Positions 40,731-52,295 of a stretch of DNA of 64,000 nucleotides are shown piece by piece; positions within the stretch are counted from its first letter, which is position 1; each line of letters begins with the position of its first letter. Both the position numbers and the translations under genes were made by a program. This DNA is from Actinacidiphila alni. GTDB lineage: Bacteria > Actinomycetota > Actinomycetes > Streptomycetales > Streptomycetaceae. The notes beneath the pieces were generated by a model. That model did no database searches and was not told the DNA's origin. It worked only from the letters and a program-made list of their open reading frames with translations. Where the stretch lies: positions 62,001-126,000 of the forward strand of contig NZ_FONG01000009.1 in the NCBI RefSeq assembly GCF_900112845.1. The letters run 5' to 3'.

Positions 40731-41375
40731 ATGCCCAAAAACCGTCTCGTGCACGGAATATGTGCCGCCGTCAGTGCCGCGCTGCTCGCGGCGACGGCGC
40801 TGCTCGTCGGCGGCGGCACCGCGCAGGCCGCCCTGCCGACCCCCATCGCCGCCTCGACCGCCCGCAGTTATCTGTCCGGGATGACGGCGACCCCCGAGAC
40901 GCACGCCTCGACGTACGACCGTGATCTGTTCCCGACCTGGATCACCATCTCGGGCACCTGCGACACCCGCGAGTACGTGATCAAGCGCGACGGCACGAGC
41001 GTGGTGACCAACAGCTCGTGCAAGGCCACCTCGGGACACTGGACCAGCGCCTACGACGGCGTGACCACCACCGACCCGTCGACCTTCGACATCGACCACC
41101 TGGTACCGCTCGCCGAGGCGTGGAGCTCCGGCGCGTGGGCGTGGACGACGGCGCAGCGCCAGGCGCTGGCCAATGACGTGACCCGGCCGCAACTGATCGC
41201 GGTGTCCGCGCACTCCAACCGCTCCAAGGGCGACGGCGACCCGACCGAATGGCTGCCGCAGGCGTCGTACCAGTGCACGTACGCCCGCGCCTGGGTGCAG
41301 GTGAAGCACTACTACGGGCTGACCGTGGACAGCGCGGAGAAGTCGAAGCTCAGCTCGATCCTCAGCGGCTGCTGA
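40731..41375 (+). CDS. Secreted HNH endonuclease family protein (DUF1524-type)
   Basis: 214 residues. The signal peptide (MPKNRLVHGICAAVSAALLA, cleavage near AQA-AL) indicates export. The nuclease core has FDIDHLVPLAEAW, QLIAVSAHSNRSKGD and a nearby DPTEWLP, the His-Asn-Lys arrangement of extracellular HNH proteins; paired cysteines suit an extracellular enzyme. Probable role: degradation of external DNA for nutrients, or competition. A strong hairpin terminator follows at 41409. Confidence 0.9.
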   Translation: MPKNRLVHGICAAVSAALLAATALLVGGGTAQAALPTPIAASTARSYLSGMTATPETHASTYDRDLFPTWITISGTCDTREYVIKRDGTSVVTNSSCKATSGHWTSAYDGVTTTDPSTFDIDHLVPLAEAWSSGAWAWTTAQRQALANDVTRPQLIAVSAHSNRSKGDGDPTEWLPQASYQCTYARAWVQVKHYYGLTVDSAEKSKLSSILSGC

Positions 41376-41408
41376 AACCTTCCTGCCGCCCCACCGGCAC
41401 CTCACGTA

Positions 41409-41444
41409 CGGCTGCCCCGGTCATGGCGGTGACCGGGGCAGCCG
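41409..41444 (+). terminator. Terminator after the HNH nuclease gene
   Basis: Perfect 15-bp stem CGGCTGCCCCGGTCA / TGACCGGGGCAGCCG with a 6-base loop, 33 bases past the stop. Confidence 0.85.
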
Positions 41445-41718
41445 CGTGCGGGCCGACGGCGTGTCAGCAGTTCCTGCCCCTGCCTGCGCCAGGGGCCGGT
41501 GATCGCCAGCGAGGCTCCTTACGTCGCGGTTCGTCGCGCGGTGCGTTGCGGCACACCGTGCCGCCGCTCGGCCAACTCCTCGTGAACGCCGGCCCACTCC
41601 CAGGGGTCCGCCCCTGAACAACCCCAAAAATTCGCAAAGCCCGCCTAAAGCGGAGTGCCCCACCCGTCTCTAAGGGCAAGCCCTTCCACCCGCCGCCGGC
41701 GGAGAGGGGCGCCCCGTC

Positions 41719-41849
41719 AGGGGCGCGGGGAACTGCGCGCTCAGGCCGCGCGGGGCTGCTGCTGACAAACCGCCCCCAGCAGGGCAGACGCTGTTTGTTC
41801 TGCGACCACCGGACCGGTGGGGGCTGAGCGCGCAGTTCCCCGCGCCCCT
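41719..41849. repeat. Palindromic repeat element, copy 1 (25-bp perfect terminal inverted repeats)
   Basis: Arms at 41719-41743 and 41825-41849 (AGGGGCGCGGGGAACTGCGC...) are exact reverse complements. The 81-base core between them includes AAACCGCCCCCAGC and GCAGACGCTGTTTGTTCTGC. A second copy of arms and core is at 50286-50444. It has no coding capacity and resembles the short interspersed GC-rich elements common in Streptomyces intergenic DNA. Confidence 0.9.
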
Positions 41850-41956
41850 AAAAACATGACTCCCGCACTCCGAAGGAGACCTCAGGCACCCCACCCGGAG
41901 AGGCACCGTCCTCCGCAGGAGACATCACACACCCCACTCCCCCGGAGGGGCACCGC
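41850..41956. repeat. Flank module of repeat copy 1 with two tandem ~42-45 bp units
   Basis: Right after the right arm: AAAAACATGACTCCCGCAC, then unit A (41868-41909) and unit B (41911-41956), both of the form CTCCGnAGGAGAC...GGCACCG. The same module, reverse-complemented, precedes repeat copy 2 at about 50218-50285. Confidence 0.8.
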
Positions 41957-41997
41957 ACTCCGCGCGGGCGGGGCGGGTACAGGGGCCGGGCCCCTGG

Positions 41998-49170: not shown

Positions 49171-50151
49171 TCAGTTATGGCTGTGCAGGGCCGCGTTGAG
49201 GCCGCCCCAGGAGCCGGTGCGCTGGAGCACCTCGACCTTGCCGGTGGTCGAATTGCGGCGGAAGAGGAGATTGTTGGCGCCGGAGAGTTCCAGGGCCTTG
49301 ACGATCGTGCCGTCCGGGAGCGTGACGCGGGTGCCCGCGGTGACGTACAGGCCGGCCTCCACGACGCAGTCGTCGCCGAGCGCGATGCCCAGGCCCGACT
49401 CGGCGCCGAGCAGGCAGCGCTCGCCCAGCGACACGCGCTGGGTGCCGCCGCCGGACAGGGTGCCCATGATGGACGCGCCGCCGCCGATGTCGGAGCCGTC
49501 ACCGACGACGACGCCCTGCGAGATGCGGCCCTCGACCATCGAGGTGCCGAGCGTGCCCGCGTTGAAGTTGCAGAAGCCCTCGTGCATCACGGTGGTGCCG
49601 GACGCCAGGTGCGCGCCGAGGCGGACCCGGTCGGCGTCGGCGATGCGTACGCCGGACGGGGCGACGTAATCGGTCATCCGCGGGAATTTGTCCACGCCGT
49701 ACACCGACAGGTGCAGGCCCTCGGCGCGGGCCGCGAGCCGCACGGCCTCGATGCCGGCCACCGGCACCGGGCCGATCGACGTCCACGCGACGTTCGCCAG
49801 CAGACCGAACAGCCCTTCCAGATTCGGCTCGTTGGGCCGGACCAGGCGGTGGCTCAGCAGGTGCAGCCGCAGATACGCGTCGTGCGCGTCGAGCGGCTTG
49901 TCGTCGGTCGACGCGATGACGGTCCTGACCGCGACCACCTCCACGCCGCGGCGCGGGTCCGCGCCCAGCGCCTTGGGCGCCGCCGCGCCCAGCAGTTCCG
50001 CCGCGCGCTCGGCGGACAGCCGCTCGGTGCCCGCGGGGCCCGGCTCGGCGGTCAGCTCGGGTGCGGGGTACCAGGTGTCCAGGACGGTGCCGTCGGCGGC
50101 GACGGTGGCGAGGCCGACGCCGGTGGCGCCGGTGGCACGTGACTCATTCAT
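49171..50151 (-). CDS. dapD: 2,3,4,5-tetrahydropyridine-2,6-dicarboxylate N-succinyltransferase
   Basis: 326-residue DapD: succinyl-CoA-dependent succinylation of tetrahydrodipicolinate in lysine and meso-diaminopimelate synthesis, needed for peptidoglycan. The left-handed beta-helix hexapeptide region (~180-290; [54 protein letters not shown]) and [21 protein letters not shown] match the actinobacterial form. Length is normal. The gene appears monocistronic; copy 2 of the palindromic repeat lies upstream. Confidence 0.94.
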
Positions 50152-50217: not shown

Positions 50218-50444
50218 CCGGAGCGCGGTGCCCCTCCGGGGGTGGGTGCCTGATGTCTCCTGCGAAGTGCGGGAGTCATGTTTTTAGGGGCGCTGGGGGC
50301 ACCTCCCAGCGGTAGCTGGGGGAGGAACTGCGCGCTCAGCCCACGCCGGGCCGCAGGCAAAAAACCGCCCCCAGCGGGGCAGACGCTGTTTGTTCTGCGA
50401 CCACCGGGCCGGCGGGGGCGGGCCGCGCAGTTCCCCGCGCCCCT
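50218..50444. repeat. Palindromic repeat element, copy 2, with reverse-oriented flank module and nested mini-element
   Basis: Flank module (50218-50285) is the reverse complement of the one after copy 1. Left arm starts at 50286 but is split by a 31-bp insertion; right arm is 50424-50444. The core (AAACCGCCCCCAGC, GCAGACGCTGTTTGTTCTGC) has the same orientation as in copy 1. Confidence 0.88.
50294..50324 (-). repeat. Nested mini-palindrome, copy B
   Basis: On the minus strand it reads CTCCCCCAG-CTACCGCTGGG-AGGTGCCCCCA. It interrupts the left arm of repeat copy 2; the uninterrupted arm of copy 1 (41719-41743) serves as the empty site. Confidence 0.85.
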
Positions 50445-50509
50445 AAAGGGGCAAGTGGACGCGGCCCTGGCGGCGGTACGCGAGGCCGCCGGGGCCTGAA
50501 CACCCCGGT

Positions 50510-52276
50510 TCAGTAACGGCGTTCGGGAGCCTCGCCGTCCCACGCGGCGGCCTGTCCCGGACCCGCGCCGAGCACCGCGCAGCGCAACCAGTGCTCCCCC
50601 GGCTCCAGTTGCGTCACCAGCGTGGGCAGCGCGGTGCGCCGGGCCAGCACATTGGTGCCGGACAGCGGCTCGACGACGCGCCCCTCGCGGGCGCCGTCCA
50701 GATCGCGCAGCCCGCTCAGCTCCCCCGCCTCGTTGACGACGACCGCGCCGCCGTCCACCTCCTGACGGAGCGTCAGTCCGGCGTCGCGGTCGACGGCGAA
50801 GCCGCCCTCCGCGGTGTGCAGCGCCCGGCCGGTGCGGATGCGATGGGTCCGCAGGTGCCAGGGCGCGGCGGCGGTCAGCCAGGTGGTGATCTCCACGTCA
50901 GGCCAGGGCCGCCAAGTGCTGCGTACGGTGTTGCCGTCCTCGACCGCCGGGTCGTCCTGGTCCTCACGGATCCGGAAATGGCGCGGCGCGTCGCCCGCGT
51001 CGTCGCTGACCGCGAGCACCGAGTCGTACGCCGCGGGCTCCGGCCCGAGGCCGTCCACCGGCACACTGAAGCCGAAGCGGGTGGAGTAGGCGAATTTGGC
51101 GTATTTGGCGGAGCCGCCGCGCGCCCAGTGGTTGTACTGTCGGCCGCTGAGCAGCGTCGCGTCGCCGCCCGACCGCAGCAGCACCGCGCCCGCGTCGGGC
51201 TGGGCGAGCGCGTCCGGCAGGTCGGCGGCGGGCTCCTCCGGCACCGTCCAGAAGGCGTGGTCGGCGGGCAGCGCGAGCGGCAGGAAAGCCTTCGCCGCCC
51301 AGTACGGCGAGCCGGGGCTGTTGTACTGCTCGGCGAGCGCGGGCTGCGGATAGCCGTAGCCGATGGACAGCAGCCCGCCGGGCGAGGTCAGCGCCGAGCG
51401 CTCCCGCCACCACCGCAGGTGCCGCAGCAGCAGCCCCTTGGCCTCGCCGTACGGTACGGCGTCCACGCCCGCGTACGGCAGCGCGCCCCAGAAGGAGCCC
51501 TGCGCGAAACGGTAGGTGAGGCTGCGGCCGAAGGGGACGGCCGCGCCGTCGGCGGCGAACCAGTGCCGGAAGCCGGGCGCGAAGTCGGCGGCGCGCTGCC
51601 GGAAGCGGGCGGCGCGCGCGGGGTCGCCGTCCCCCGCGAGGGCCGCGTAGATCAGGCCGTAGAAGTGCATGGCCCAGGGGATGTAGTAGTCGCGCTGCGC
51701 GGTGTCGCCGTCGGCGTACCAGCCGCCGTTGAGGGCATAGCCCTCCAGCCGGTCCAGGCGGGCGTGCCGGGCGTCCCGGTCGTGGCCGTACCCGACCCGG
51801 TCCAGGCCGAGGCTGACCATCACCGGGAAGAAGTTCCAGTTGTTCTCCGGCGTCCGGACGTGCAGATAGCTCGCCAGCCATGCGCCGACCCGGTCGCGCT
51901 CCTTGCCGGTCAGCGGGTCCCAGAGCCTGTCGGGCGCGAGGGCGAGGGCGAAGCCGATGGCGGCGGTCTCGACGGTCCGCTGATCGATCCCGTCGGCCGT
52001 GCCCCAGTACTCGGGATGCCCCGGATCGGTCCCCGCGGCCAGCCCTCGGGCCCACAGGTCCCAGTGCCCGAAGTCACCCCCACCCGCCGCGAGCGGCGCC
52101 AGCCCCCACAGCGGCCGCGCATACCCCTCCAGATCCGCGGCCGTGTCCGGATAGTGCGCGACACTCACCCCGGGCCGTATCCGCGCCCCACCAGGACTGG
52201 CACACCCCACCAGCGGCTCCACCAACTCCCGCACATACGCCTGCAATTCCCCCCGCGCATCCCCACCGCCCGCCAT
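50510..52276 (-). CDS. DUF2264 domain-containing protein
   Basis: 588-residue protein matching DUF2264 over most of its length: ARIRPGVSVAHYPDTAADLEGYARPLWGLAPL, then helical repeats (PENNWNFFPVMVSLGL, YYIPWAMHFYGLIYAAL) that suggest an alpha/alpha toroid as in polysaccharide lyases and unsaturated glycosidases, then a C-terminal beta-rich part. It is probably an enzyme of plant or uronic-acid polysaccharide breakdown, not biochemically assigned. ATG 52276 has GGAGG 9 bases upstream; GTG 52285 is too near that site. A strong palindrome 20 bases upstream suggests LacI-type repression. Confidence 0.85.
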   Translation of the reverse strand: MAGGGDARGELQAYVRELVEPLVGCASPGGARIRPGVSVAHYPDTAADLEGYARPLWGLAPLAAGGGDFGHWDLWARGLAAGTDPGHPEYWGTADGIDQRTVETAAIGFALALAPDRLWDPLTGKERDRVGAWLASYLHVRTPENNWNFFPVMVSLGLDRVGYGHDRDARHARLDRLEGYALNGGWYADGDTAQRDYYIPWAMHFYGLIYAALAGDGDPARAARFRQRAADFAPGFRHWFAADGAAVPFGRSLTYRFAQGSFWGALPYAGVDAVPYGEAKGLLLRHLRWWRERSALTSPGGLLSIGYGYPQPALAEQYNSPGSPYWAAKAFLPLALPADHAFWTVPEEPAADLPDALAQPDAGAVLLRSGGDATLLSGRQYNHWARGGSAKYAKFAYSTRFGFSVPVDGLGPEPAAYDSVLAVSDDAGDAPRHFRIREDQDDPAVEDGNTVRSTWRPWPDVEITTWLTAAAPWHLRTHRIRTGRALHTAEGGFAVDRDAGLTLRQEVDGGAVVVNEAGELSGLRDLDGAREGRVVEPLSGTNVLARRTALPTLVTQLEPGEHWLRCAVLGAGPGQAAAWDGEAPERRY

Positions 52277-52295
52277 CGACCCCACCCTCCCTGAT

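Follow-up and report, generated by a model that had tools for sequence, protein, structure and literature searches.

A genus-wide palindromic repeat in Actinacidiphila alni whose asymmetric core occurs in either orientation relative to its flank

Two copies of the element in the window

The window, the 64,000-nt stretch of Actinacidiphila alni DNA analysed here, contains two copies of a repeat element of about 131 nt: copy 1 at 41719-41849 and copy 2 at 50286-50444. Both are built from a 21-nt arm (AGGGGCGCGGGGAACTGCGCG), an asymmetric core of about 89 nt and the same arm inverted. In copy 1 the left arm occupies 41719-41739, the core, in its forward direction, 41740-41828, and the inverted right arm 41829-41849 (minus strand). 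In copy 2 a 31-nt palindromic insert (50294-50324) splits the left arm into an outer part, AGGGGCGC (50286-50293), and an inner part, GAACTGCGCG (50325-50334), which are followed by the forward core (50335-50423) and the inverted right arm (50424-50444, minus strand). The arm 20-mer is found in the window at 41720-41739 (plus strand, exact), 41829-41848 and 50424-50443 (both minus strand). To the left of copy 2, with its 5' end facing the element, is a gene for a tetrahydrodipicolinate N-succinyltransferase (49171-50151, minus strand; Pfam THDPS_M); to the right, with its 3' end facing the element, is a DUF2264 gene (50510-52285, minus strand). A search of the whole window against Rfam returned no families.

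A first-pass annotation of 50218-50444, an interval whose limits proved correct, had claimed that copy 1 carries a flank module on its right side and copy 2 the reverse complement of that module on its left, while the core itself reads in the same direction in both. This description is borne out. With up to three mismatches allowed, the flank 20-mer AAAAACATGACTCCCGCACT matches the window twice, exactly in both cases, at 41850-41869 (plus strand) and 50266-50285 (minus strand), and has no match in the shuffled window. The flank, termed module A, extends with its mini-palindrome units over 41850-41962 beside copy 1, and over 50218-50285 on the minus strand beside copy 2. The cores belong to a direct repeat (41729-41852 and 50324-50447) with 88% identity over 124 nt.

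The insert in copy 2 represents another palindrome that looks mobile (TGGGGGCACCTCCC..GGGGGAG and its relatives) and is inserted in arms of the element, on either side, in several species. Palindromes of this type are found at 50294-50324 and in loci L103, L107, L111, L114, L237 and L261, standing just inside the arm in L111 and L114. Arms split as in copy 2 number seven left and two right among 94 raw element calls. Near copy 1, an inverted repeat at 41383-41470 follows a reading frame that ends near 41375 and is perhaps a separate terminator.

The repeat family, its gene context and module A

The arm 20-mer occurs at 101 + 99 places in this genome (G000, an 8.27-Mb draft of 49 contigs), with none for the reversed control, and the core 22-mer, allowing at most one mismatch, at 45 + 48. 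Across the genus, Streptomyces, the arm is widespread, being found in 25 of 35 genomes with a maximum of 231 + 240 places, while the core 22-mer is present in just two of the 35, with 93 matches in G000 and 6 in G019, the closest to G000, at two loci, among the genomes compared. A slightly degenerate version found only Streptomyces sp. CBMA29 (six stretches) in a scan of GTDB genomes from which records close to the window's own genome were perhaps omitted. With copy 1 as query, all 13 chosen genomes gave matches, full-length in at least 12 and with 73-84% identity among the matches listed; those fetched from G007 span 45-46 bases, and one of them falls in a two-armed element. The core can be aligned between species (33 hand-chosen sequences), and the 21-nt arms are nearly invariant in 32 aligned copies. 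The element is therefore a member of a genus-wide, REPIN/BIME-like population of palindromic repeats of about 130 nt, and copies 1 and 2 are a sample of a family with more than 90 copies and no unique event. The literature searched, which excluded most subscription journals, held no description of this repeat family.

The counts that follow refer to 92 distinct G000 copies that have both arms and whose core reaches a score of 90 or more against the G000 consensus, drawn from 94 fetched loci plus copy 2 of the window; the raw set of 94 elements contained two double counts. Outside the 92 stand four elements that have both arms but a lower-scoring core of older or divergent type (L162, L166, L170, L197), six low-scoring chance-like calls, L112 and L192, which have no two-armed call, and one element in L390. 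Parts of the family also occur in arrays. Two stretches of G047 (C1:5497740-5498356 and C1:3600676-3601206; L366 and L369) hold elements or parts of them in tandem, the period being about 163 bases in one array and 210 in the other. Single arms lie in a 74-base tandem array in L110 (about 1050-1220), and in L109 (about 994-1160) an outward-facing arm pair forms a long inverted repeat without a core.

None of the 94 raw copies falls inside a gene, as called by a custom heuristic codon-usage caller. Among the 92 copies, 37 lie between convergent genes, 6 between divergent genes, 32 in tandem contexts antisense and 11 in tandem contexts sense, with 6 unclear. Convergent and divergent junctions are expected about equally often on a chromosome, so the excess of convergent contexts (37:6, p 1.6e-6; 35:6 in other genomes pooled) places the element at gene 3' ends. 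The antisense preference in tandem contexts (32:11, p 0.002) is significant in G000; the counts elsewhere are not (10:10 in G019, 9:9 in G047, 10:6 in G009 and 9:5 in other species).

Module A consists of an A-run followed by A[CT][AC]TGACTC or close variants. With all cores turned alike, it stands on the right only in 36 of the 92 copies, on the left only in 8, on both sides in 3 and on neither in 45 (binomial p 2.5e-5); a strict definition of the module gives 27:5 in the raw set of 94. In 400 kb of other G000 sequence, at coordinates picked blind, neither module A nor the GCACTCCGCAGGAGA unit was found, and one element was present. Within the window all four A/GCACTCCGCAGGAGA units adjoin the two copies. 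A CGCGCCCCT end precedes module A in all 20 strict matches (17 element arms and 3 ends of other chained modules) from the window and from fetched loci chosen for containing elements.

The first-pass annotation had named as its possible undoing a flank that is an independent repeat, placed at random on either side. This is ruled out by the 36:8 bias together with the absence of module A from the 400 kb elsewhere, from which it follows that flank and core are linked and that copy 2 belongs to a real minority. Placement of module A by the neighbouring genes instead of the core is likewise ruled out: in convergent contexts, which are symmetric, the module is on the right in 16 copies and on the left in 4, so it follows the core. 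Copy 2 is thus the rarer arrangement of core and module A, shared by 8 of the 44 one-sided copies.

Such an exception could arise if the core flips in place between the 21-bp arms, by recombination or template switching and with no dedicated recombinase, copy 2 being the inverted copy. The linkage to module A, which makes copy 2 a true exception, speaks for this, as does a resemblance seen by eye between the right-hand modules of left-only copies and the usual left-hand types of right-only copies. Against it stands the relation of the core to the genes. Right-only copies in tandem contexts are antisense in 14 cases and sense in 3, and an in-place flip would give mostly sense left-only copies; instead, all three tandem cases among the eight left-only copies are antisense (a chance of about 0.005 if 14:3 is reversed, with n = 3), and a gene 3' end lies to the right of the core in seven of the eight. 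Small as these numbers are, they point at the flank rather than the core as the part that occupies the unusual side. The earlier claim that the core is inverted relative to its flank thus survives as an observation on a linked pair; its reading as a flip in place is not supported, the orientation of core to gene in left-only copies being mostly the usual one.

Core orientation between genomes

Comparison of 94 element loci of G000 with 38 of G019 revealed 16 intergenic regions that are occupied in both and have both neighbour genes aligned. Combined by hand, the core has the same orientation at 10 and the opposite at 6. The count includes L023/L234 (same orientation), where the second flank match is only 92 bp, and omits five pairs with one aligned flank, all of opposite orientation (L021/L230, L040/L107, L173/L211, L186/L205 and L196/L107); a laxer rule that admits L186/L205 on its weaker second flank match (176 bp, 72%) gives 10:7, and all five added give 10:11. 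In G009 and G047, the closest arm-rich pair (96-97% at two loci), the core is the same way round at 8 of 9 shared regions and opposite at one, the guaB region, a count that omits pairs without a two-armed call at one or both loci (for example L268/L267, L306/L334, L320/L349 and L353/L327). The difference between 10:6 and 8:1 is not significant (Fisher p 0.35).

Two sites common to G000 and G019 were chosen for closer comparison, beside genes that we take, from their protein sequences, to be guaB and tig. At guaB a two-armed element is present in 7 of 30 fetched genomes, four in one direction and three in the other. At tig an element is also present in 7 of 30, five forward and two reverse but weakly scored; in a further genome, G002, the tig element has both arms and a core score too low to orient. 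The spacer downstream of guaB (L236, L237, L241, L242, L243, L247) carries different modules in species that are about 92-96% identical in the adjoining gene. Neither window site is among the shared sites: in the sister genome G019 both lack an element and the spacers do not align. No alignable empty site was seen, and inspection of flanks by eye showed no clear target duplication.

Cores follow the genome and not the site. Their identity is 0.848 within G000, and 0.738 between partners at shared G000/G019 sites without tig (the comparison covers 15 of the 16 pairs, L111/L207 being left out because an insert lengthens its core), against 0.742 for random cross-genome pairs. Outer modules also differ at the shared G000/G019 sites; at nearly all of the 16, core and flanks have both been replaced. 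Three cores are visibly inherited, namely that at tig (0.87, rank 1 of 41) and two at G009/G047 sites (identities of 0.92 and 0.87, each partner ranking first among 30, with ranks computed for seven of the nine sites), and the orientation is unchanged at all three. With partners at shared sites as unlike as random pairs and the inherited cores unflipped, a change of orientation appears to come mostly with replacement of the sequence. The first-pass interpretation is partly supported: between relatives, core orientation changes at 6 of the 16 regions shared by one pair and at 1 of the 9 shared by the other, but there the flanks and, to judge by identity, the cores are replaced as well.

These orientation differences also favour inversion in place, and one site could be a case of it. 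At L029/L108, where the orientations are opposite, the partner ranks 1 of 41 with an identity of 0.80, as an inherited, flipped core might. The L029 core has a mean identity of 0.85 to other G000 cores, for which reason we do not treat it as inherited; on the other reading it would speak for inversion in place. At changed sites both the flanks and, judging by identity, the cores are replaced, and the visibly inherited cores have kept their direction, which weighs against a flip of the core alone and leaves that reading fairly unlikely.

Two further readings of the orientation differences have little in their favour. An invertible DNA switch was one possibility raised by the first-pass annotation; in a programmed form, with a site-specific recombinase, it would account for inverted arms around an asymmetric core and for both arrangements in one genome. 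The element is present in more than 90 copies, no recombinase gene is found among five neighbouring reading frames, a scan for sigma-70-type promoter-like sites, such as the invertible part of a switch would carry, was empty in both copy regions, and from species to species the core changes along with its flanks. The suggestion is extremely improbable. Misjoining of repeat copies during short-read assembly is conceivable in a draft of 49 contigs with an element repeated more than 90 times; yet the arms are only 21 nt and the element about 131 nt long, the biases in gene context and modules are strong, and an orientation difference is also seen against G047, a single contig (although in every pair one or both of the assemblies are drafts). 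An artefact of this kind is very unlikely.

Terminator shape, mobility and related repeats

The core of copy 2 carries two overlapping terminator-like hairpins, one on each strand. On the minus strand, which is that of the DUF2264 gene, CTGCCCCGCTGGGGGCGG-TTTTTT runs from 50382 to 50365, downstream of the gene end at 50510; on the plus strand, CAGCGGGGCAGACGCTG-TTTGTT occupies 50372-50388. A third terminator-like site lies in flank A (50257-50275), bringing the copy 2 region to three against an average of 0.4 in shuffles; the same scan found no site in the copy 1 region, its core included. The GC stem with a T-tract on both strands that marks a bidirectional intrinsic terminator is thus present in copy 2 and, by the scan, not in copy 1. 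Across the family, a T-tract is present on the R strand in 91 of 92 copies (at least 4 T of 6) and on the F strand in 90 of 92 (at least 5 of 8), and 89 of the 92 retain all five pairs of the F stem. In a cross-species alignment an A-run before CCG is found in the new-type cores of G000 and G019 and is absent from other species; the older-type cores L162, L217 and L218 also lack it. Four isolated core strands showed no clear folding advantage over shuffled sequence (z -0.1 to -1.6). In the consensus structure derived from 33 diverse copies it was mainly the arm stem that remained, and few changes affected both sides of a stem, so no claim of RNA covariation is made for internal stems. Judged by sequence, most G000 cores have the shape of an intrinsic terminator on both strands and may terminate transcription.

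Intrinsic terminators of Streptomyces are likewise stem-loops downstream of genes (PMC12207403, PMC8269248, PMC8780764 and PMC6742748). In the Term-seq work of PMC12207403 they are described as U-poor, with 3-4 U in the first 10 nt, and virtually without upstream A-tracts, and strong U-tracts as rare; the core described here differs in having T-tracts on both strands and in belonging to a repeat family. U-rich Streptomyces terminators do exist, with A-tracts reported upstream of them in one paper.

The near-invariant 21-nt inverted arms match the terminal inverted repeats of MITEs, and a putative transposase could use them to insert the element in either orientation, with outer modules accreting independently. 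More than 90 similar copies with such ends, a core type restricted to G000 and G019, and the absence of the 94 raw copies from called genes would all suit transposition of this type. Y1 transposases (Y1_Tnp, PF01797; RAYT-type), the sole family searched, are missing from G000, visual inspection of the first 100 of the 200 arm places revealed no autonomous element flanked by arms, and the flanks display no clear target duplication. Moreover, of the 38 element loci in G019, 16 fall in regions where G000 has an element too, a larger share than would be expected of random insertion. We consider this origin unlikely. Across the genus, Y1 transposases are found in 7 of 35 genomes, comprising 6 of the 10 without the exact arm 20-mer and 1 of the 25 with it, a distribution that maybe reflects only phylogeny. 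Integron attC sites were also considered, and set aside on their consensus.

BIMEs are mosaic combinations of REPs and other motifs, and they resemble the present elements in that repeat units are chained in varied order outside genes. Here, by contrast, modules chain onto a common CGCGCCCCT end, and module A is biased towards one side of a core that is asymmetric. REPINs, which are REP doublets that form hairpins, share with the element two short inverted conserved sequences, a less conserved spacer, many extragenic copies and a population in each genome (PMC3116915). They differ from it in that the spacer here measures about 89 nt and is clearly asymmetric, no GTAG tag is seen in the arms (AGGGGCGCGGGGAACTGCGCG, by eye) and no RAYT-type (Y1) transposase was found in the genome. 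Inverted arms in many extragenic copies are thus shared with REP-RAYT systems; with transposase and GTAG both missing, the element is not filed as a member. The palindromic repeats tagged with CGTC or GTAG in PMC3733652 are likewise short palindromes lying mostly between unidirectional and convergent genes, and those of CGTC type have no dedicated transposase; the arms here end in neither tag and form a longer two-armed unit. Streptomyces is not mentioned in the main text of PMC3733652 and, in what could be obtained of PMC1590033, is named only in the reference list.

On balance, the element is probably a REPIN/BIME-like population that is homogenised within each genome, its symmetric arms leaving the orientation of the core free. 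The arms are mirror images, with outer modules chained onto their ends, and the copies lie downstream of genes. Gene conversion acting through the arms may bring about the homogenisation, or copies may be re-placed again and again within the same regions between genes, and since the arms mirror each other, each such event could leave the core pointing in either direction. How the core is oriented with respect to flanks and genes would then drift over evolutionary time. In this lineage the T-tracts of the core give it the shape of an intrinsic terminator on both strands. Against this reading, transposition or conversion is not seen directly and the orientation counts are small; in-place inversion followed by homogenisation could also produce these counts.

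A bolder version of the homogenised population is possible, on the doubtful side: an ancient genus-wide REPIN-like population might spread and be homogenised without a RAYT in long-lived niches at gene ends, where, in one lineage, the T-tract variant of the core would have come to occupy nearly every copy and so been broadcast, in either direction, as a bidirectional terminator to about 90 gene ends.

A core exchanged as a cassette between conserved mirror-image arms would allow the concerted evolution of regulatory DNA within a bacterial genome to be tested directly. It also raises the question of how a REPIN-like population is mobilised where no RAYT-type transposase is detected in the genome. 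Should the cores terminate transcription, a single sequence variant would have rewired many transcription-unit ends at once.
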